Source: Pirellulales bacterium (lineage in GTDB: Bacteria; Planctomycetota; Planctomycetia; Pirellulales; JADZDJ01). Taken from it: a DNA stretch of 54,525 bases. Below the pieces are notes generated by a model. That model searched no databases. It was not told the DNA's origin and worked only from the letters and a program-made list of their open reading frames with translations. This document shows, in pieces, positions 25,775 to 37,469 of this stretch. How positions within the stretch are numbered: the first letter of the stretch is position 1; each line of letters begins with the position of its first letter. The stretch is taken from contig JADZDJ010000143.1 in NCBI GenBank assembly GCA_020851115.1, positions 1-54,525 on the forward strand, in the 5' to 3' direction. Made by a program: the position numbers and the translations under genes.

Positions 25775-27631
25775 ATGGTTCTCTACGAGGAAGTCCCGCA
25801 CTATTCCAACTGGCTACAGTCGGCGCTGCAACAATTCGGCATGACGTCGCTGATCGTCGTGTTGGTCGCGGTGGTGTTGGGATACATCGTGTCGGCGTTT
25901 CGTTATGGGCCGATGCAGGCCGGCGATGTTTTGTATCGCAGCGTGCTAGGCGCAGCGATTGATTTGGTGCGGATGTCGCCGCGGCGCGTGTGGGCCTTAA
26001 CGCGACTAGCGGTGCAGGAGTCGATGCGACGCCGGGTTTGGATCGCGCTCGTCGCCTTCGCCGTGATATTGACCTTCGCCGGTTGGTTTCTCGATCCGAC
26101 CAGCCCAGCGCCGGGGCCGCTGTATCTTTCGTTCGTGTTATCGTGGACGACCTACTTGGTCCTAATTCTGGCGCTCTTTATGAGTGCCTTCAGCCTACCG
26201 GCCGATGTTAAAAACCGCACGATCACCACGGTGGTCACCAAGCCGGTGCGTTCGAGCGAGATTGTGTTGGGCCGCATCTTGGGCTTCACATTGATCGGCA
26301 CCGTGTTGCTGGCGGTGATGGGGTTGGGGAGCTATTTGTTTGTCATTCGATCTCTCAGCCACACCCACGCGTTTACTGCGGAAGACCTCACGGTCGCTGG
26401 TAAGAAAATCGCGATCGGCCAGACCAAGTCCGGCATCGTGGGCAGGACGCAGATTGGTCAGCATCATCAGCACGACGTCATCCTGAATGACGACGGCACG
26501 CTGGAAACCGATATCAAACACGGCCACAAGCACCACGTCACCATGACCGAAATCGACGGCAAACAGCAATTCGCCGTCGGCCCACACGAAGACTTGCTGG
26601 TCGCCCGCGTCCCGGTGCGTGGCAAATTGAAAATCATCGACCGCGATGGCAATTTGAAGGAAAAAGGTATTAGTGTCGGAAAAGAATGGGATTACCGCGG
26701 TTTCATCGACGGCGGTACGCTTGCCAAGGCGGTTTGGATCTTCGACGGCGTCGATGAAAAGGTGCTGTTCGGCGATCGGCCGGAAGAAGACCGCGGCCTG
26801 CCCTTGGAAATGACAATTCGTGTGTTTCGTACACATAAGGGGAAGATCGAGCAGGGTATCACCAGCCGCTTGTGGCTCAAGAACCCTTCGACGCAGGCCG
26901 AGAGCGAACCGCAAATTTTCCCCACGAAAGACGCGGAGACGAACCTGCGGTTTTTCCCCCGCGAGCTGGCGAAGATGAGCGCCGGCGAGAACGAGCCGCC
27001 GATCGATCTATTCAAAGACTTGGTTCACGACGGCCAGCTCGAAGTCCATTTGCAGTGCGTCGAACCGGGGCAATATCTCGGCATGGCCCCGCCAGATCTC
27101 TACATTCGCGCCGGCAACGCGTCGTTCGCCATGAACTTCGTCAAAGGATACCTGAGCATCTGGATGCAGATGGTGCTGGTCGTCTCCCTCGGAGTAATGT
27201 TCAGCACTTTCGTCAGTGGCCCTGTGGCGATGGTGGCCACGCTGGGTTGCATTGTGATGGGCTTCTTTGCGGAAAGCATCGCCAAGCTGTTCCGCAGTCT
27301 GATGGAAAACAACCGCAAGCTGGTTCCCGGCGGCGGGCCGGTGGAGTCGTTCATTCGCTTGATTACTCAGAAGTCGATCACCGCCGAATACAACGACAGT
27401 GCCGGCATCCAGATCGTCTATTGGATCGATAAGGTTGCGCTAAATGTCATGAAAGCGTTCACCGATCTCTTGCCCGATTTCACCACATTCAGCAATGTGA
27501 ACTTCGTCGCCAGCGGGTTCAATATCCCCGGCGATCTCGTCTTGGAGCAAGCGACCAAGATGGCGGCCTTCGTGTTTGCGACTTGTCTGGCCGGCCTAAT
27601 CTTCTTCCGCATGCGAGAGGTGGCGCAATGA
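25775..27631 (+). CDS. ABC-2-type permease with large His-rich extracytoplasmic loop
   Basis: This 618-residue permease has helices at about 22-42, 85-105, 115-140 and 170-195, then four or more towards the C-terminus (about 460-520 and 590-612). Between helix sets, residues about 200-455 form a large soluble domain. It begins with a histidine-rich stretch near residues 227-250 (GQHHQHDVI, then DIKHGHKHHV). Such a loop is much larger than in ordinary ABC-2 permeases. The ATP-binding gene is 50 bases upstream, and the next gene overlaps its stop by an ATGA, so the three form one unit. Metal binding by the His cluster is inferred only. The substrate is unknown. Confidence 0.85.
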   Translation: MVLYEEVPHYSNWLQSALQQFGMTSLIVVLVAVVLGYIVSAFRYGPMQAGDVLYRSVLGAAIDLVRMSPRRVWALTRLAVQESMRRRVWIALVAFAVILTFAGWFLDPTSPAPGPLYLSFVLSWTTYLVLILALFMSAFSLPADVKNRTITTVVTKPVRSSEIVLGRILGFTLIGTVLLAVMGLGSYLFVIRSLSHTHAFTAEDLTVAGKKIAIGQTKSGIVGRTQIGQHHQHDVILNDDGTLETDIKHGHKHHVTMTEIDGKQQFAVGPHEDLLVARVPVRGKLKIIDRDGNLKEKGISVGKEWDYRGFIDGGTLAKAVWIFDGVDEKVLFGDRPEEDRGLPLEMTIRVFRTHKGKIEQGITSRLWLKNPSTQAESEPQIFPTKDAETNLRFFPRELAKMSAGENEPPIDLFKDLVHDGQLEVHLQCVEPGQYLGMAPPDLYIRAGNASFAMNFVKGYLSIWMQMVLVVSLGVMFSTFVSGPVAMVATLGCIVMGFFAESIAKLFRSLMENNRKLVPGGGPVESFIRLITQKSITAEYNDSAGIQIVYWIDKVALNVMKAFTDLLPDFTTFSNVNFVASGFNIPGDLVLEQATKMAAFVFATCLAGLIFFRMREVAQ

Positions 27632-29409
27632 CCGAACGCCGTAGTTTTTACCGCAAAATTGCCTATATTGTGGCGATTGCCGTCCTCATTGTTCCGCTCT
27701 ACGTGCTTGGCCGACCGGCGTCGCTCGATGTCAATGGCGCGCTGACCAAGGGGGGCACGCTTGCGCAGGAGCGCGATACGCACGGCTTGGCCCAGGCCTC
27801 GCTGGGCGAAATCGACCCGGCCAGCGAAACTGCCAAGCTGGCCACGCTCGGTCTGCGCGGCGTCGCGGTGGTGATGCTCTGGAACCGCGCTCAGCACTAT
27901 CAGATGGTCGAAGATTGGATGAGCCTGCGTGCCGTGCTGGAACAAATCACCCGCTTGCAGCCAAACTTCTTCAGCATCTGGGATTTTCAAGCCCACAATC
28001 TGTCGTACAACATTTCCGTCGAGTTCGACGACTACCGCGACCGCTTCACCTGGGTCATGGACGGCATTGAGTTTTTGAAAAAAGGCCTCGATTACAACCA
28101 GTCCGACCCGCGGTTTCCCGCTAAAATCGGCTGGTTCTACGGCAACAAAATTGGCCGTGCCGACGAAAAGGTGCAATATCGCCGTTTGTTCAAGAAGCTG
28201 CAGGAAGAAAAAGGAGCAAAGCTCACCGATAACTGGCTAGTGAGCTACGAGTGGTATCGAAACGGACAAAAGCTCGTCGATTCAGGCAAGCGGCTTCGCG
28301 TTTACATCACCGGCCATCCGGGCGCCAGTCAAACAAAGCCGGGCGAACGTGCGCCAGGTCCACTGCTCTTCCACGACAGCATACCAATGGCCCTCATCTC
28401 CTACGCGGAAAATCTAGAAGAAGACGGCGTGATTGGCGACCAGGCCAAGACCGCTTGGGAAAATGCCGCGGCCAGTTGGGATGCATATAAGAAGCGCGAT
28501 CTCATGACGTCCTACGGCTACTCGGTGCATCTGGAAGATCTGGAAGCGCTTCGCGGCCAGATTGAAAGCTTGGGAAAGAAGCTGGAAGATCTCCTCCCCG
28601 GCGAGCGCGAATCAATCTTTCAAGAAAAGCGGGCCAAGCTCAGCGAGGCGCAGCGCGCCATCCTCGATAAGAAGCCAGCCGAGCGAACGGCCGATGAAAG
28701 CCAAATCGGCTACGCCTTCGAGCAGCAAACAAAAGTCACTTGGGAAGAAGTCGCGCTGCGCGCCCCGGCCGAACAGCGCGCGGCCGCCCGCGAAATCTCC
28801 GCCGAGATCGCCGACCTCGAGCAGAAAGCCAACACGATCGATACCTATCGCGACATCGTCAACTTCAACTACTGGAACGAACGCTGCCGCGTTGAGCCTA
28901 CCGACGCCTGCATCGAAGCCCGCACACTGCTGCGCGACGCGGCCAAGGCCTATTACCCCGAAAGCGACCTGGTCAAGTCCGCCGAATTGTACGAACAGGC
29001 GTTCAAAAAATGGGACGAAGTACTGAAAATTTCGCCGATCTTGCGCACCAACTCGATCATGGCCGATGATCTGGTCGAGGAGATCAACAAGTATAAAAAA
29101 GTCCTCGGTCAATCGACCGGTGCCGACTTGCCCACGGATTTCGTACTGCAAGATCTGATCGATTTGCAGGCAGGAAAACAGCCCGCTTCCACGCCGGCCG
29201 TCGATCAGCACGACGAAAGCGAGCACGACAAAACTAAGAGTCACGATCCGGAAAAGAGCGGTCAGCATTCAGAAGAGGGTCATCAATCGCAAGACAAACG
29301 TGACGAGGGCGGCCAACAAGACGGTGGCATCCAAGCTGAGGAAAAGAAGGCCGACTCTCCCATGCCAATTTCCGCCTTCCGTCTACCCTGCGTTCATCGC
29401 AATGGATAA
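27628..29409 (+). CDS. Membrane-anchored helical protein linked to ABC transporter
   Basis: This 593-residue protein starts at ATG 27628, overlapping the permease stop (ATGA). One N-terminal helix ([18 protein letters not shown]) anchors a large, mainly helical soluble domain. Its conserved-looking core includes [20 protein letters not shown] and [20 protein letters not shown], followed by [14 protein letters not shown], reminiscent of tetratricopeptide-like packing. Residues 340-440 are charged coiled coil, and the C-terminus is a Lys/Glu/Asp/His/Gln-rich tail. I recognise no named family. Position argues that it is the third component of this transporter, perhaps a periplasmic adaptor. Its stop overlaps the start of the NADH dehydrogenase gene by eight bases. 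Confidence 0.8.
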
Positions 29410-30691
29410 CGCACCTCGCGTCGTCGTTGTCGGTGGTGGATTCGGCGGCCTCAACGTCGCCCGCAAGCTGCGTAAAGCCCCGGTTCAAGTGACGCTAGTC
29501 GATCGCCGAAATTTCCACCTCTTTCAGCCGCTGCTGTATCAAGTCGCCACCGGCGGCCTCTCGCCGGCGAACATTGCCGCGCCGCTGCGTGCGTTGCTCA
29601 AGCGTCAAGCAAACTGCGAAGTGCTGTTGGGAGAAGTGACCGGCGTCGATGTCGCCGAGCGTCGCATCCTACTCGGCGACGGCCAATTGCCCTACGACAC
29701 GCTCGTTGTCGCCACGGGTGTCCGCCACCAATACTTCGGCCGCGACGATTGGGAGCCGCTCGCGCCAGGGCTGAAAACCGTCGAAGACGCCACCCTAATT
29801 CGCGGCCGCATCCTCTCCGCTTTCGAACAGGCCGAGCGCGAAACCGATCTTGCCGCCGTCCGCGCCTGGCTCACCTTTGTGATTGTCGGCGGCGGGCCGA
29901 CCGGCGTTGAGCTAGCCGGCATGGTCAGCGAATTGTCGCGCGAAACGCTCCGCGGCAACTTTCGTCGCATCAATCCGGCCGATGCCGAGGTCATCATCGT
30001 CGAGGCCGCCGGCCGGATGCTACAATCGTTTCCCGAACAGCTTTCCGCCAAGGCGCTTGCTTCGCTGGAAAAGTTGGCCGTCGTGGTGCGCACGAATTGC
30101 CAGGTGACCGATGTGAAGCCGCACCAGGTCACCGTGCAATGCGGCCAGCAACTGGAAACGATCGCCGCGCGCACCGTCCTTTGGGCCGCCGGCGTTGCGG
30201 CATCACCACTCGGCCGATCGATCGCCCAACTCACCGGTGCCGAAATCGACCGCGCCGGCCGTGTCGTCGTCGCCTCCGACTGCAGCATCCCTGGCCATCC
30301 AGAACTCTTCATCATCGGCGACCTTGCCCACTTCAACGACCCTTCCGGCCGGCCGCTCCCCGGCGTTGCTCAAACCGCCATCCAACAAGGCCGCTACGTT
30401 GGCAAGCTGATCGCCGCGCGCCTTCAAGGTCGGTCCTTGCCTCCGTTTCGCTATAAAAATCGGGGCAGTCTCGCCACGATCGGTCGTCACGCGGCAGTGG
30501 CCGAAATCGGCAAATGGAAATTCTCCGGCTGGTTGGCCTGGTGGATCTGGCTCTTGATCCACCTCATCAACATCGTGCAGTTCCAAAACCGCCTCTTGGT
30601 TCTGGTCCAATGGGCCTGGATGTATTTCACGCGCAATCGATCGGCGCGACTGATTACTGAAGTGCCCGCGGAAAAAGCCATGCGCAGTTAA
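29402..30691 (+). CDS. ndh: Type II NADH dehydrogenase
   Basis: This 429-residue FAD enzyme has a first dinucleotide fold [12 protein letters not shown] at about 7-18, a second at [15 protein letters not shown] and the FAD-binding [13 protein letters not shown]-terminal amphipathic/hydrophobic region ([18 protein letters not shown]) attaches it to the membrane. It oxidises NADH and reduces quinone without pumping protons. ATG 29402 overlaps the previous stop, so it is probably translated from the same mRNA as the ABC trio. Other members of this flavoprotein group are possible, but the C-terminal Wxx[12 protein letters not shown] pattern is that of NDH-2. Confidence 0.9.
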
Positions 30692-30944
30692 GCCGGGCGA
30701 CCACTTTTGCGCTGGTTGCAACCTATCTTGCGTATCGCCCCAACATCCTCATGTAATTTGAATGTCTTCCCACAAGCAAGAGCGACCGGTGATCCGATCA
30801 GATGTGCGCATTTCTTAGTGGCCGATGCTCGATTGCAAAGGTGCCTTGCCGGATGAGAGGGGCTGTTTCAATGCGGTGAGTGCCAGCTATGCTGGTCGAG
30901 GGTCCGAGCATCGAAGGCGACTGAATTTTCCTCAAGGCATCCAG

Positions 30945-32651
30945 ATGCGATACCTGGCGCTTGTTACCGACTATGACGGCACGATTGCCACCGACGGCAA
31001 GTTGGCGGATGCCACGGTCAAGGCAATCGAGCGCCTGCGGACGTCTGGCCGTCGAGCGATTCTCGTCACCGGTAGGCGGCTGGAAGAACTGCTCGCGATC
31101 TTGCCCCGCGCTCACCTGTTCGATTACATCGTGGCCGAAAACGGGGCCGTCATCTACGAGCCGCGCACGCGGCAGGAAACGTTGCTGGCCAACCCGCCTT
31201 CGCCGGAGTTTACCGAGCGATTGAAAGCGCTCGACGTTCCGTTCGAGACTGGGCGAGTGGTGGTCGCCACCTGGCTACCCTATCACAATGCGGTGCTGCA
31301 GGCGATTCAGGAAACGGGGCTTGAATTGCATGTGATCTTCAACAGGGCGGCAGTCATGGTGCTTCCCACCGGTGTGAACAAGGCGACGGGAATGGACCAT
31401 GCGCTACGGAAGCTCGGCCTTTCTCCGCACGAGACGGTCGGCGTCGTCTACGCCGAGAACGATCACTCCTTCCTCAACCGCTGCGAATGCGCGGTGGCGG
31501 TGGCAAACGCAGCGCCCTCCATTCAAAAACTCGCCGCCTTCGTGACGAAAGGAGAAGCCGGCCAGGGAGTTGTCGAGCTGATCGACGAATTGATCGACGA
31601 CGACCTCTCTCATACGCATGGGCGGTTGGACAAGAACTTGATTACGATCGGCACGCGCGCGGATGGGACGGCCGTCAGCGTCGCGCCCTACGGCATCAAC
31701 ATCCTGATCGCCGGGCCTTCCGGCAGCGGCAAATCGACTTTTGCCTGTGCCGTCATCGAACGGCTGATGGAACGGGCGTATCAACTCTGCATCGTCGATC
31801 CTGAAGGAGATTACGGCGCACTGCCGGAAGTATTTACGATCGGCAACCAGTGCCACGCCGTCACCGTGAGCGAGGTGCTTGCTTTCCTGGAAGACCGGAA
31901 GGTCAATATCAACGTGAATCTGCTGGGAATCCCATTGGCGGATCGGCCGCTATTCTTCGCGCAACTCTTGCCGAACCTGCAAGCCATGCGGACGCGAACC
32001 GGCCGCCCGCACTGGATCGTCCTCGACGAGGCGCATCACATGATCCCTGCCGAGTGGTCGCATCTCGGCAAGCTGCTGCCCCACAAGCTGGGAGAGACGG
32101 TGCTAGTAACCGTTCACCCCGACCATCTTGCGCCTCTGACCCTTTCGCTGGTCGATGTGGTGATTGCGGTCGGGAGTTCGCCGCGCGACACTTTGAAGCA
32201 AGTTGGCGATGCGATTGGTGAGACGCTGGTATGGCCCGAGGGGCTTTCGTACCAAAGAGGAAAGGTCGTCGTCTGGTTTCCGCATCGCGGCCAACCGCCA
32301 TTTTCCATGGATGCCGCGGCCGGCCGCGCCGAGCGCCTACGGCACCGTCGCAAGTACGCCGAAGGGGATATGCGCCATCACAGCTTCTATTTCCGCGGAC
32401 CCAAGGGGCGTCAGAATCTCAAGGCCCAGAACCTGGTTGTTTTTTCGCAGATCGCCGATGGCGTCGATGAGGAAACCTGGCTGTTTCACTTGCGCCAAGG
32501 AGACTATTCCCGCTGGTTTCGAGACGCGGTCAAGGACAAGTACCTGGCCGACCAGGCCGAGCGAATCGAACAGCGTCGGGATCTGCGACCGGCCGAAACC
32601 CGCAAACTGATCCGCAGCCTCGTCGAAGCGCGCTACACGCTACCGGAATAA
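30945..32651 (+). CDS. HAD phosphatase fused to P-loop ATPase
   Basis: This 568-residue protein starts at ATG 30945. Residues 1-215 are a HAD-IIB (Cof-like) hydrolase: motif I DYDGT with Asp9/Asp11, motif II VTGR at about 41, Lys146 in NKATG, and an altered acidic motif AENDHS where GDGEND is usual. Residues about 228-460 are a HerA/DUF87-like ATPase with Walker A GPSGSGKS at 257-264 and Walker B HWIVLDEAHHM at about 356-366. The C-terminal 100 residues are basic and helical (WLFHLRQGDYSRWFRD). It is apparently cytoplasmic. How the two activities cooperate is unknown. The fusion is clear from one open frame with no stop. Neighbours are NDH-2 upstream and an IS remnant downstream. Confidence 0.87.
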   Translation: MRYLALVTDYDGTIATDGKLADATVKAIERLRTSGRRAILVTGRRLEELLAILPRAHLFDYIVAENGAVIYEPRTRQETLLANPPSPEFTERLKALDVPFETGRVVVATWLPYHNAVLQAIQETGLELHVIFNRAAVMVLPTGVNKATGMDHALRKLGLSPHETVGVVYAENDHSFLNRCECAVAVANAAPSIQKLAAFVTKGEAGQGVVELIDELIDDDLSHTHGRLDKNLITIGTRADGTAVSVAPYGINILIAGPSGSGKSTFACAVIERLMERAYQLCIVDPEGDYGALPEVFTIGNQCHAVTVSEVLAFLEDRKVNINVNLLGIPLADRPLFFAQLLPNLQAMRTRTGRPHWIVLDEAHHMIPAEWSHLGKLLPHKLGETVLVTVHPDHLAPLTLSLVDVVIAVGSSPRDTLKQVGDAIGETLVWPEGLSYQRGKVVVWFPHRGQPPFSMDAAAGRAERLRHRRKYAEGDMRHHSFYFRGPKGRQNLKAQNLVVFSQIADGVDEETWLFHLRQGDYSRWFRDAVKDKYLADQAERIEQRRDLRPAETRKLIRSLVEARYTLPE

Positions 32652-32955: not shown

Positions 32956-33504
32956 CTATGTGCAGCATGCAGTTCCGTCGCCGCCGCTGGCCTGATTCCA
33001 GGGCATGCGAGCGAGCACAAGCGCCATTCCGCAGGTGTCCGTGACCCCGGCAAACACGAGACCGGCGCCTACGAATGCGGCCAATCCGGCGAAATAAGGG
33101 TGTACCAGCAGCGCCAAGATGGAACTGATCAGCACGATCGAACCGGCAGCGATGCGGACTTGCCGTTCCAGCGAGAGTGTCTTCTTGCCGCGCACGACCG
33201 GCAGGCCGGCATCGGCCCACGCCAGGGTGCCCCCCTCGACGTTGATCGCGTTCAGCCCCGCCGCCGAAAGTCGCTCGCAGGCTTGCTTTCCCCGACTGCC
33301 CGACCGGCAAATGAAGTACACGGGCCGATCGGCCTGAGCGACCTCTTTCACGGCATCGGCCGTCAGGCGGTCGAGTGGAATGTTGCGGGCAAAATCGACG
33401 TGTACTTCGCGGAACTCGGCCGGAGTGCGAACGTCAATCAGTTGCACCCCTTGCCCGGCGGCCGGCAATTCGGCAAGTTCTTTGGGAGAAATCGTGGCAA
33501 TCAT
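32956..33504 (-). CDS. Rhodanese-domain membrane protein
   Basis: This 182-residue protein has a rhodanese domain at residues 1-108 with QLIDVRTPAEFREVHV and active-site Cys66 in CRSGSRG, a complete loop. A DUF2892-like pair of helices follows at about 118-165 (IAAGSIVLISSILALLV and GLAAFVGAGLVFAGVTDTCG), ending in a short tail with two cysteines. It probably transfers sulfur at the membrane. ATG 33504 is supported by GGAGG about six bases upstream. Rhodanese plus DUF2892 is a known arrangement in bacteria. It stands next to the IS3 remnant. Confidence 0.88.
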   Translation of the reverse strand: MIATISPKELAELPAAGQGVQLIDVRTPAEFREVHVDFARNIPLDRLTADAVKEVAQADRPVYFICRSGSRGKQACERLSAAGLNAINVEGGTLAWADAGLPVVRGKKTLSLERQVRIAAGSIVLISSILALLVHPYFAGLAAFVGAGLVFAGVTDTCGMALVLARMPWNQASGGDGTACCT

Positions 33505-33688
33505 TCCATCCTCCGTCGATGGGGAATATCGCATGGCCGAATCCGGGCCGCGCCCTTGAGGAAGCCATGGCCAACCCAACTTGGCAGTGCGTCAACCTCC
33601 GCTGGTCAGATCGTCGTCGCGGCCGCGGATTCGCACTAGCGCCGCGTCATCGTCGCGCCACCGGCCGGATAATCCTGGGCAGGCAATG

Positions 33689-34430: not shown

Positions 34431-35093
34431 ATGAAACGAATTCGGACAATAGGAACATTGGCTTTGCTGGCGAGTGTCGTAACTCTTTTCTCGGCGAGTG
34501 CAAACGCTGCCTTCCGAGTGTTTACGACGAGTGAATTGTTGGGAATGGATATTTATTCTTCGTCTGGCTACATTAATGTTTATGGTAATCCACTCACCGC
34601 AAGCCCTACATACGCAGATGGTGTAAAACCGATGACCGGTGATGCCGGAGCGACAAATATCTTAGGCGTTGGTGGAAATATTTACTACACATTGAATGCG
34701 ATTGATTTGGCGGCGTTCATTTCCAGCGTTTCGTCTGGTGATATTTTGGCTGAACTAAACACAAATGACAATAATCAGACCTGGAAAATCGGAATTTGGT
34801 ATGACGCCGGGAGCGGAATTGTCGAAGATTCTGTAACACTCGCTAATAATCCATTGTTCCCGCCAGGGGTGTCAGGCGCTACATTCCTTGCCTTGCCCAC
34901 GCCCAGTTCCCTTGTAGGGGTTGGGGTTTTCGTCGAGAATATAATTACTCAGCCTGATCAATACCATGCCTCGTGGTCACCTCCCGGTGGCACCGCTGTT
35001 CCAGAAGCATCTAGCATGCTCGTGTGGAGTGGTTTAATTTTGGTTGGTGCCCTAGTTTCTGTTCGCCATAGACGGAAATACGTCACGACATGA
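34431..35093 (+). CDS. PEP-CTERM-like secreted protein, AT-rich gene
   Basis: This 220-residue protein has a signal peptide (IGTLALLASVVTLFSASANA) and a mature domain of about 150 residues without recognised family. It ends in a PEP-CTERM tail, VPEASSMLVWSGLILVGALV plus RHRRK, where the usual PEP is followed by Ala-Ser-Ser. ATG 34431 has AGGAAAGGG upstream. The gene uses AT-ending codons far more than its neighbours, which suggests a recent arrival or weak selection. An intrinsic terminator follows about 55 bases after the stop (listed separately). Confidence 0.83.
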   Translation: MKRIRTIGTLALLASVVTLFSASANAAFRVFTTSELLGMDIYSSSGYINVYGNPLTASPTYADGVKPMTGDAGATNILGVGGNIYYTLNAIDLAAFISSVSSGDILAELNTNDNNQTWKIGIWYDAGSGIVEDSVTLANNPLFPPGVSGATFLALPTPSSLVGVGVFVENIITQPDQYHASWSPPGGTAVPEASSMLVWSGLILVGALVSVRHRRKYVTT

Positions 35094-35192: not shown

Positions 35193-37469
35193 TTATATCG
35201 TGCGATCAAAATACTGGAAGCTGCTTTGGATCTGTGTCCAGGTCAGCGTTAGTATGCCGCCATTGGAACTCCCGACGCCCCAAGGGTTAAAGAGAGTTAC
35301 CGTCTGAGAAGCTGAGTTATAGCCAATGACTGCATAAGCGTGATTGGCAACGACACCAGATTGCGTTCCGCTCGATTTCGACAGGACGCAGATCAGTTCG
35401 CCGGCATTATAGGCAGTTGCGAAAGTATTCAGACCCGATGCATCAATCACATACGTAAACGCGGTGGTCGATTGTCCGGTTACGTTCTCCAGCGTCATGA
35501 ATGCGAACTGCCATTCAATTGAGCTATAACTGTTAGTCGCTCCGAGAAACCAGCTCATTTCTTTTGCTTGTGCATAGGCCTTCTCGGCTAACGCAACCCA
35601 CAACTCGCCGCCGATGACACGGGCATACCTTGTCCCGCCAGCCGGAAGGTAAGAATCGACAGTGACAAATTCTGCTACGCCATCATGATAGAACCGCACA
35701 GTATACGTGCCATCGCCGTTGACGATGAACATGCTGGTGATCGTCGCGTTGCTGCGCAGGGCCGTCTCTGCCAACGACGCTAAAAATGCACAGTCGTTCA
35801 GACTGCCTTGCGCTACGTCCGTATATGCTGCGCCGTTGACAAATAAGCTTCCCGAAACGAGCGAGTAGCTGGCTCCGGCAGTCGGACGATCTAGCCCCAA
35901 GAACCATTTGTTGACCAAGTTGCCCAACTGCGCTGCGGTCGAGCCTGCCGCTAGATTGCCTAAGGTTGCTCCTTGATACTTCGCGTTGGCGGAGTTGCCC
36001 TGGACGATGTAGCTCGATAGTTTTTGCACGTAGCCAAGGCTGCCAAACAGCGACACGGTGGTCACCATCGCCGTCAAATCCGTGAATTCGGTGGAACTCA
36101 CGCCGCCAGCCGCGACGGCCTGGAAGATCGAAATCATATCGGTGCGGTCCAGCTTGCCGTCGTCGTAGAAGTCTTCAGCAAGACTGATCAGCGCCGCGTC
36201 GTGCAAGTTCTCGTCGAACCAAGTCGGCGGATCGGGGTCTGTCGGCGTCGGATCGTCATCGTTATTGGTGACCGCGACATCGGCGGCATCCAAGCCGTTA
36301 TAGTTGGCATCGGCGCTGGTGGCGGCCCCGGTGCGAATCGTATAGGCCACATTGCCGTCATCGACCGCGTCGTTCACACCGGTGACGGTCACGGTCTGCG
36401 CGGTATTCCAGTTCTGCGGCGTAAACACCAGGGAGGAAGTCGAGACCGTTCCTTCCGCCGCATTGCTGGTGCTGATGCCGATCGTGACATTGGCGGTGGG
36501 CTGGCTGTTGAGCTTCACGGTGAAGGCAGCCGTGCCGCCGGCTTCGGTCGTTACCAGGCCCGAGGTGGGCGTGACCGTGATCCCTGCTGTGTCGTTGTCC
36601 GTGTTGCTGACCGAGACGTCCAGAGCGTTCAAGCCGCTATAGTTGGCATCGGCGCTGGTGGCGGCCCCGGTGCGAATCGTATAGGCCACATTGCCGTCAT
36701 CGACCGCGTCGTTCACACCGGTGACGGTCACGGTCTGCGCCGTATTCCAGTTCTGCGGCGTAAACACCAAGGAGGAAGTCGAGACCGTTCCTTCCGCGGC
36801 ATTGCTGGTGCTGATGCCGATCGTGACATTGGCGGTGGGCTGGCTGTTGAGCACCACCGAGAAGGCGGCGGCCGCGCCGGCTTCGCTGGTCGTTAGCCCC
36901 GAGGTGGGCGTGACCGTGATTCCGGCCGCGTCGGGAGGAGGCTGCGGAACTGGTGGATTCGGAGGATTGGGAATCGGGTCAATTCCTGGGGTGGGTGGCT
37001 GCGGACCAGGATCGACGGGCGGCTCGGCCGCTTGCGTATCGACGGGGTCGCCATCCAAGGTCACGCCGCTTTTCTTGACCACCAGTTGATGTCCAGTCCC
37101 CTTGAAATAGATATCGATCGGGCCGGCAAGCCGAACTCGTTCCTGGCCGCCGCCCGAGTTGATGCGGAATATTTCAGTGATGTCTTGGCGTCCGCCATTG
37201 GCTTTGCTATTCAGCGAAATGTAGTCGTCGCCGCCGCGCAAATCGACCCGAACAGCACTGATTCTGGACGTCGACCAATGCCCGCTGATGCCCTTTACGC
37301 TGATCTTGCCGTCCGATTGCCGGACAAAAATCCGATCGTCGTCGTTCGTGCCGACGATTTTCAATAGCCCGTGGGAGTTCATCGAAGCGGTCACGCCGTT
37401 AGCCAGCATTTGCCGCGGCTCAAGGGCTTCAAAGTGGATGGGTCGAGAGCGTTTTTTTCTTGGCGACAT
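35193..37469 (-). CDS. Calpain-like cysteine protease with LEPR motif and beta repeats
   Basis: The protein is 758 residues. The N-terminus has a basic start and FEALEPRQMLA at 13-23, the LEPR-type export/anchor motif of planctomycete surface proteins. Residues about 30-155 form a domain with DDRIF and GGDDYI. A Pro-rich linker leads to two near-identical beta-sandwich repeats of about 113 residues (about 180-405; AGITVTPTSGL openings, Calx-beta-like). Residues 405-530 include an acidic helix pair. The C-terminal calpain (C2) domain has Cys560 in GSLNDCAFLASLA, His710 in NHAYAVIGY and Asn728 in LFNPWG, the full triad. Bacterial calpains are mostly uncharacterised; a surface or secreted protease is inferred. 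Stop 35193 lies next to the bidirectional terminator. Confidence 0.85.
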   Translation of the reverse strand: MSPRKKRSRPIHFEALEPRQMLANGVTASMNSHGLLKIVGTNDDDRIFVRQSDGKISVKGISGHWSTSRISAVRVDLRGGDDYISLNSKANGGRQDITEIFRINSGGGQERVRLAGPIDIYFKGTGHQLVVKKSGVTLDGDPVDTQAAEPPVDPGPQPPTPGIDPIPNPPNPPVPQPPPDAAGITVTPTSGLTTSEAGAAAAFSVVLNSQPTANVTIGISTSNAAEGTVSTSSLVFTPQNWNTAQTVTVTGVNDAVDDGNVAYTIRTGAATSADANYSGLNALDVSVSNTDNDTAGITVTPTSGLVTTEAGGTAAFTVKLNSQPTANVTIGISTSNAAEGTVSTSSLVFTPQNWNTAQTVTVTGVNDAVDDGNVAYTIRTGAATSADANYNGLDAADVAVTNNDDDPTPTDPDPPTWFDENLHDAALISLAEDFYDDGKLDRTDMISIFQAVAAGGVSSTEFTDLTAMVTTVSLFGSLGYVQKLSSYIVQGNSANAKYQGATLGNLAAGSTAAQLGNLVNKWFLGLDRPTAGASYSLVSGSLFVNGAAYTDVAQGSLNDCAFLASLAETALRSNATITSMFIVNGDGTYTVRFYHDGVAEFVTVDSYLPAGGTRYARVIGGELWVALAEKAYAQAKEMSWFLGATNSYSSIEWQFAFMTLENVTGQSTTAFTYVIDASGLNTFATAYNAGELICVLSKSSGTQSGVVANHAYAVIGYNSASQTVTLFNPWGVGSSNGGILTLTWTQIQSSFQYFDRTI
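36292..36513 (-). repeat. Direct repeat, copy A within calpain-like gene
   Basis: These 222 bases are almost identical to 36631-36852 with an offset of 339 bases (113 codons), exactly in frame. Only a few substitutions are visible. Each copy encodes most of one beta-sandwich repeat. The high DNA identity suggests recent duplication or gene conversion. Confidence 0.9.
36631..36852 (-). repeat. Direct repeat, copy B within calpain-like gene
   Basis: This is the second copy of the 222-base unit; see 36292-36513. The flanks differ between the copies (EAGAAAAFSVVL against EAGGTAAFTVKL at the protein level), so homogenisation covers only the central part. Confidence 0.9.

Follow-up and report, generated by a model that had tools for sequence, protein, structure and literature searches.

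The DNA analysed here, a 54,525-nucleotide contig of a Pirellulales bacterium (GenBank assembly GCA_020851115.1, JADZDJ010000143.1; the window), encodes a protein in which a HAD-IIB hydrolase domain is joined to a HerA-like ATPase core, a fusion that is old and widespread, followed by a third domain of the DUF5752/OrfY type. We read the family as a HAD-IIB small-molecule phosphatase built on a HerA-type ATPase ring subunit, carrying a docking module from trehalose and carbohydrate regulators. The OrfY repeat, together with a kinase encoded next to the gene in relatives, is the strongest clue to its function.

Three domains in one reading frame

The gene reads from ATG to stop without interruption (Table 1), confirming that a single frame joins the HAD-IIB and ATPase parts. 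An alternative in-frame ATG at 30825 would give a longer product; homologues begin at the 30945 position instead. The gene is single-copy in its host genome, and its GC content of 60% is ordinary for the window.

Table 1 Features of the three-domain protein gene and its neighbours in the window.
Feature	Position	Strand	Evidence or remark
Three-domain HAD-IIB / HerA-like ATPase / OrfY-repeat protein gene	30945..32651	+	568 aa; start and end common to homologues
HAD-IIB phosphatase domain, aa 1–220	30945..31604	+	Pfam/NCBIfam; Foldseek E 9.8e-17; VIA Z 27.2 over 220 residues
Degenerate HAD motif IV, aa 168–173	31446..31463	+	VYAEND replaces GDxEND
HerA-like RecA-fold ATPase core, aa about 225–470	31617..32351	+	DUF87 1.5e-6; VIA Z about 20
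Single DUF5752/OrfY repeat, aa 475–565	32367..32639	+	hhalign prob 95.7, E 8.5e-9; Foldseek OrfY 4cso
NDH-2-like pyridine nucleotide-disulphide oxidoreductase, upstream neighbour	29402..30691	+	Pfam; context, outside system
Rhodanese and YgaP-like membrane protein, downstream neighbour	32956..33579	-	Pfam; context

At the N terminus, the HAD-IIB signatures recognised in the first-pass annotation (DYDGT, VTGR and NKATG, motifs I–III) are all present in frame. Pfam assigns the region to Hydrolase_3 (4.5e-21), and with the TIGR01484 profile of the HAD-IIB subfamily it scores 72.2 bits, above the profile's cut-off of 41.8. The C2-capped domain matches sugar-phosphatase and phosphoglycolate phosphatase models, while falling under the cut-off of every specific HAD-IIB equivalog family in NCBIfam, including the phosphoglycolate phosphatases TIGR01487 (76.3 against 122.75) and NF002245 (83.1 against 198). 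Trehalose_PPase (PF02358) is absent among the best 25 Pfam families listed, the weakest of which has an E-value of 0.088. The closest solved fold to model residues 1–223 is PH1421 (1wr8; rmsd 2.6, 26% identity), annotated as a phosphoglycolate phosphatase, and trehalose-6-phosphate phosphatase folds rank lower in the structure comparison.

The second domain proved to be a P-loop ATPase of the HerA/DUF87 kind, as annotated, with intact Walker A (GPSGSGKS, aa 257–264) and Walker B (IVLDEAHH, aa 357–364) motifs, a DUF87/HerA Pfam match above its cut-off, and residues K263, D361 and E362 conserved in the alignment. In an AlphaFold2 model built from 22 sequences, with those from plasmid records left out (mean pLDDT 88.1), residues 229–476 superpose on the HerA structures 8xav, 4d2i and 9x1m (VIA Z 20.5, 20.2 and 20.1, respectively). 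These alignments begin at HerA residues 118–152, that is, past the HAS barrel; no HAS-barrel family is listed by Pfam for the window protein, whose N terminus is occupied by the HAD domain, with just two short strands between HAD and P-loop in the model.

The C-terminal region, first described as basic and helical, exists and is really a defined third domain. Profile–profile comparison of the tail with 19 planctomycete DUF5752 proteins gave the hhalign match in Table 1, and the tail profile matches OrfY of Thermoproteus tenax (4cso) at 1.6e-5. DUF5752 is matched by 23 of 28 homologues (best 2.7e-6), whereas the window sequence alone, at 13.1 bits, lies under the Pfam cut-off of 23. Modelled alone, the domain reaches a pLDDT of 86.3, and its top three Foldseek matches are all OrfY (prob 0.85–0.97, E 0.24–0.59). 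The tail aligns with the first half of DUF5752, in which, by inspection, the same pattern occurs twice, so the fusion carries one repeat rather than the two tandem repeats (about 208 positions) of full DUF5752/OrfY. A single DUF5752-type repeat was also seen on two other planctomycete contigs (L102 and L103), where it follows an apparent receiver-like region and precedes a PEP-synthase/PPDK-like (pyruvate-phosphate-dikinase) domain.

The fourth HAD motif had been noted as altered, and the change is real: the window reads VGVVYAENDHS where relatives read GVGDAENDHS, codons 168–169 being GTC TAC (GD to VY). It is, however, private to the window copy and does not characterise the architecture. 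Among 53 aligned proteins, 52 have G at position 168, the exception being V in the window; at position 169, 48 have D and four have N, with Y in the window alone, which rules the change out as a family trait; N172 and D173 are invariant among the 53. In established HAD chemistry, Mg is coordinated by the first Asp of motif IV, and with this residue missing the phosphatase of the window copy is probably weak or dead, to judge from its sequence, while the ATPase and tail look intact.

Distribution and reduced forms of the family

Searches of whole genomes and plasmids yielded full-length homologues in Planctomycetota (the phylum being inferred from named relatives and gene content), in metagenome-assembled genomes and isolates labelled Acidobacteria, Bdellovibrionales, Cyanobacteria, Bacteroidetes and Proteobacteria, and in plasmid records of Synechococcus, Sinorhizobium, Aminobacter, Paraburkholderia, Caballeronia, Agrobacterium and Nonomuraea. 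Taxon labels of metagenome-assembled genomes are possibly wrong for single contigs, a caveat that leaves cultured isolates unaffected. The three-domain family includes Actinobacteria and spans at least six bacterial phyla, with identities to the window protein of 38–71% in the first alignment; several members already carry the bare label 'HAD-IIB family hydrolase'. The Nonomuraea entry (NZ_LT559118.1), listed as a plasmid in PLSDB, is an 11.85 Mb record that looks like a chromosome.

Full-length homologues in so many genomes reject a sequencing or assembly join as the origin of the fusion. Separately encoded halves did not turn up either: the flanking sequence of the HAD-only genes checked contains no ATPase/tail half. 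A phage or viral origin is rejected by zero matches in phage records or IMG/VR. In the openly accessible literature searched, we found nothing relevant on a HAD–HerA fusion, on DUF5752 or on OrfY, and the fusion does not appear there as one already known.

Of the 43 proteins with an ATPase region not truncated at the edge of a contig, 37 retain both the Walker A lysine and the C-terminal domain. The two are kept or lost jointly (tail repeat in 37/37 with the lysine, 0/6 without), an association whose Fisher p of 1.6e-7 counts sequences, beneath which lie about two independent losses. In the two lineages concerned, Steroidobacter with its relatives and the genomes G016 and G032, the ATPase region is still recognisable without Walker A and without the tail, and in Steroidobacter the HAD nucleophile has gone as well (D9 to G). 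The Steroidobacter and Peristeroidobacter proteins (L036–L039) are thus conserved double pseudoenzymes, lacking HAD nucleophile and Walker A alike, and are encoded near apparent polysaccharide export and glycosyltransferase genes.

Eight further relatives, in Planctomycetota and Nostoc, consist of the HAD domain only (221–247 aa). They fall among the fusions in a HAD tree built without branch-support values, and this placement suggests that the HAD-only state arose by loss rather than being ancestral. The HAD part of the window protein has no unusual branch length in the same tree.

Gene neighbourhoods and the proposed role

Around the window gene, the IS remnant reported at first pass was not found: the flanks hold an oxidoreductase and a rhodanese/YgaP-like protein (Table 1), flanking ORFs tested with Pfam gave no match to transposase families, and no IS-like ends clearly flank the gene on both sides. 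Promoter or terminator signals of note were absent around the gene, and an Rfam search of the window gave zero matches. Elsewhere in the window, two overlapping ORFs at 25775–29409 (618 and 608 aa) have nearly no Pfam matches, the first weakly resembling the gliding ABC permease GldF (0.00063), and a protein with a PEP-CTERM-type C-terminal anchor (VPEASS, a hydrophobic stretch and RHRRK; 34431–35093) is encoded beside a calpain-family protease gene on the opposite strand (35193–37469).

Conservation of the neighbours had been proposed as a check, and clustering of full-fusion neighbourhoods alone gave no conserved partner. A linkage surfaced in the wider family: in ten genomes of the window's order, the family gene has a ROK-family kinase gene as a close neighbour, 0–172 nt away and with few exceptions on the same strand. 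The adjoining family genes are fusions in G050 and G014, copies with a dead ATPase in G016 and G032, and HAD-only genes in G002, G010, G015, G020, G037 and G046. The ROK kinase resembles polyphosphate glucokinase NF045942 (41–46 bits, under the cut-off of 250), its solved relatives include the polyP/ATP glucomannokinase 1woq, and a homologue is fused to phosphoglucose isomerase in G054 and, by frame length, also in G020 and G044. The isomerase fusion indicates that the kinase handles glucose and, taken with the other two likenesses, that it very likely makes glucose-6-phosphate. In G054 the fusion occupies one open frame (L127:506-2878; PGI 5.2e-222, ROK 3.5e-7), apparently a bifunctional enzyme leading from glucose to fructose-6-phosphate, and L128 and L129 hold similar long frames. 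An orthologue of the ROK kinase is absent from the window's own genome, and none of the fusions closest to the window protein has one next door.

The tail points in a related direction. Among the neighbours of free DUF5752 genes at 15 planctomycete loci (L107–L121), we counted 13 matches to TreT, 11 to GT20 and 10 to trehalose-phosphatase, and this steady presence in trehalose clusters suggests a role for an unnamed Pfam family. The trehalose complex of T. tenax has been described (PMC3634074); OrfY did not come up for that paper. The Aminobacter fusion adjoins genes for GT4, amylo-alpha-1,6-glucosidase and trehalose-6-phosphate synthase, the Paraburkholderia and Caballeronia plasmid fusions have GT4 genes among their neighbours, and the neighbours of plasmid-record fusions are mostly stress and carbohydrate genes; full-fusion neighbours are otherwise not conserved between genomes. 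Trehalose genes co-occur weakly with the fusion (6/12 versus 3/24 genomes, p = 0.036, the genomes being related), and GT20 and TreT, like the ROK kinase, are missing from the window's genome, so a sugar phosphate is favoured as a class of substrate and not trehalose-6-phosphate specifically.

The kinase neighbour in relatives and the OrfY module thus point towards control of sugars or osmolytes and away from a task on DNA, and of the sugar phosphate, nucleotide or DNA end first proposed as target of an ATP-gated phosphatase, functional linkage favours the first and not the other two. The most likely role for the family, to which we give roughly even odds, is that of an ATP-controlled hexose-phosphate phosphatase or a regulator of glucose or osmolyte metabolism. 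The C2-capped HAD domain would hydrolyse a hexose phosphate, presumably glucose-6-phosphate or a related sugar phosphate and in some hosts possibly trehalose-6-phosphate. The ATPase core, which like HerA probably forms oligomers and putatively a ring, would bind and hydrolyse ATP and so gate or organise the phosphatase domains, predicted to sit where HerA has its N-terminal HAS barrel, and the OrfY repeat may couple both activities to a partner in sugar or osmolyte metabolism. More tentatively, a HerA-type motor core, a kind familiar from DNA translocation and defence, may have been co-opted to control a sugar-phosphate phosphatase as an ATP-driven or ATP-sensing ring, docked through the OrfY-type module to osmolyte or glucose metabolism. 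The window copy itself may act as a regulator, or its motif IV change may be recent damage.

The loss of GD from motif IV, the absence of ROK and trehalose partners from the genome and the loss of catalytic residues in other lineages (D9 to G and no Walker A in Steroidobacter) could also mean that the window gene is a remnant, either decaying or of purely structural value, the fusion being non-enzymatic in this genome. We consider this unlikely, as the frame is intact, the remaining catalytic and ATPase motifs are all present, and the HAD part is no less conserved than the ATPase part against close homologues (66–70% versus 64–71%).

HerA ATPases with known partners work on DNA, and the HerA-like core could accordingly be pictured as a ring translocating DNA while HAD strips phosphate groups from DNA ends or from nucleotides, a picture with which LigD-like genes near three Bacteroidetes copies and near the solo gene in G002 would agree. 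It is nonetheless improbable: the C2-capped HAD-IIB domain is closest to small-molecule phosphatases, neither a HAS barrel nor a conserved NurA-like neighbour was found, trehalose operons contain members of the tail family, and the kinase linked to relatives resembles glucokinases. An anti-phage protein of the HerA-plus-effector kind, with HAD as effector, is very improbable: HerA drives several defence pairs (8xav, 8woc) and the best PADLOC match is mad8 of the MADS system (7e-12), but that match spans the P-loop region alone, the annotated neighbours include no obvious defence gene, phage relatives are absent and the genes of relatives have sugar and stress genes next to them. DNA-end processing and defence are both less likely than the sugar-phosphate role.

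Comparison with known systems

A sugar-phosphate role would represent a metabolic use of a HerA-type ATPase. In this family the unexplained OrfY/DUF5752 module shares one chain with a phosphatase and an ATPase, and the forms that occur in nature, whether intact, lacking a working ATPase or phosphatase, or reduced to HAD, make the division of labour between the domains directly testable.

With the PH1421/TA0175 phosphoglycolate phosphatases and the sucrose-6-phosphate phosphatase group, the window protein shares the fold, the C2 cap and motifs I–III; it differs in its fusion to an ATPase, in lacking the GD of motif IV and in scoring under specific HAD-IIB equivalog cut-offs. With HerA, a DNA translocase of the FtsK–HerA superfamily, it has in common the RecA-like core, Walker A and B and DEAHH, whereas HAD takes the place of a detectable HAS barrel, no NurA or other nuclease is encoded alongside and the C-terminal domain is another one. 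Trehalose operons of the order GT20 – DUF5752 – TreT – trehalose-phosphatase likewise combine an OrfY-type module with a HAD-fold sugar phosphatase; the fusion, by contrast, is one gene, most genomes lack those enzymes beside it and its HAD domain misses Trehalose_PPase. Compared with DUF5752/OrfY itself (4cso), the tail has one repeat instead of two, is fused at the C terminus and, for the window sequence alone, stays under the Pfam cut-off, while the repeat shares the FxF, H, (N)D-F/Y-S-x-W and LA positions.
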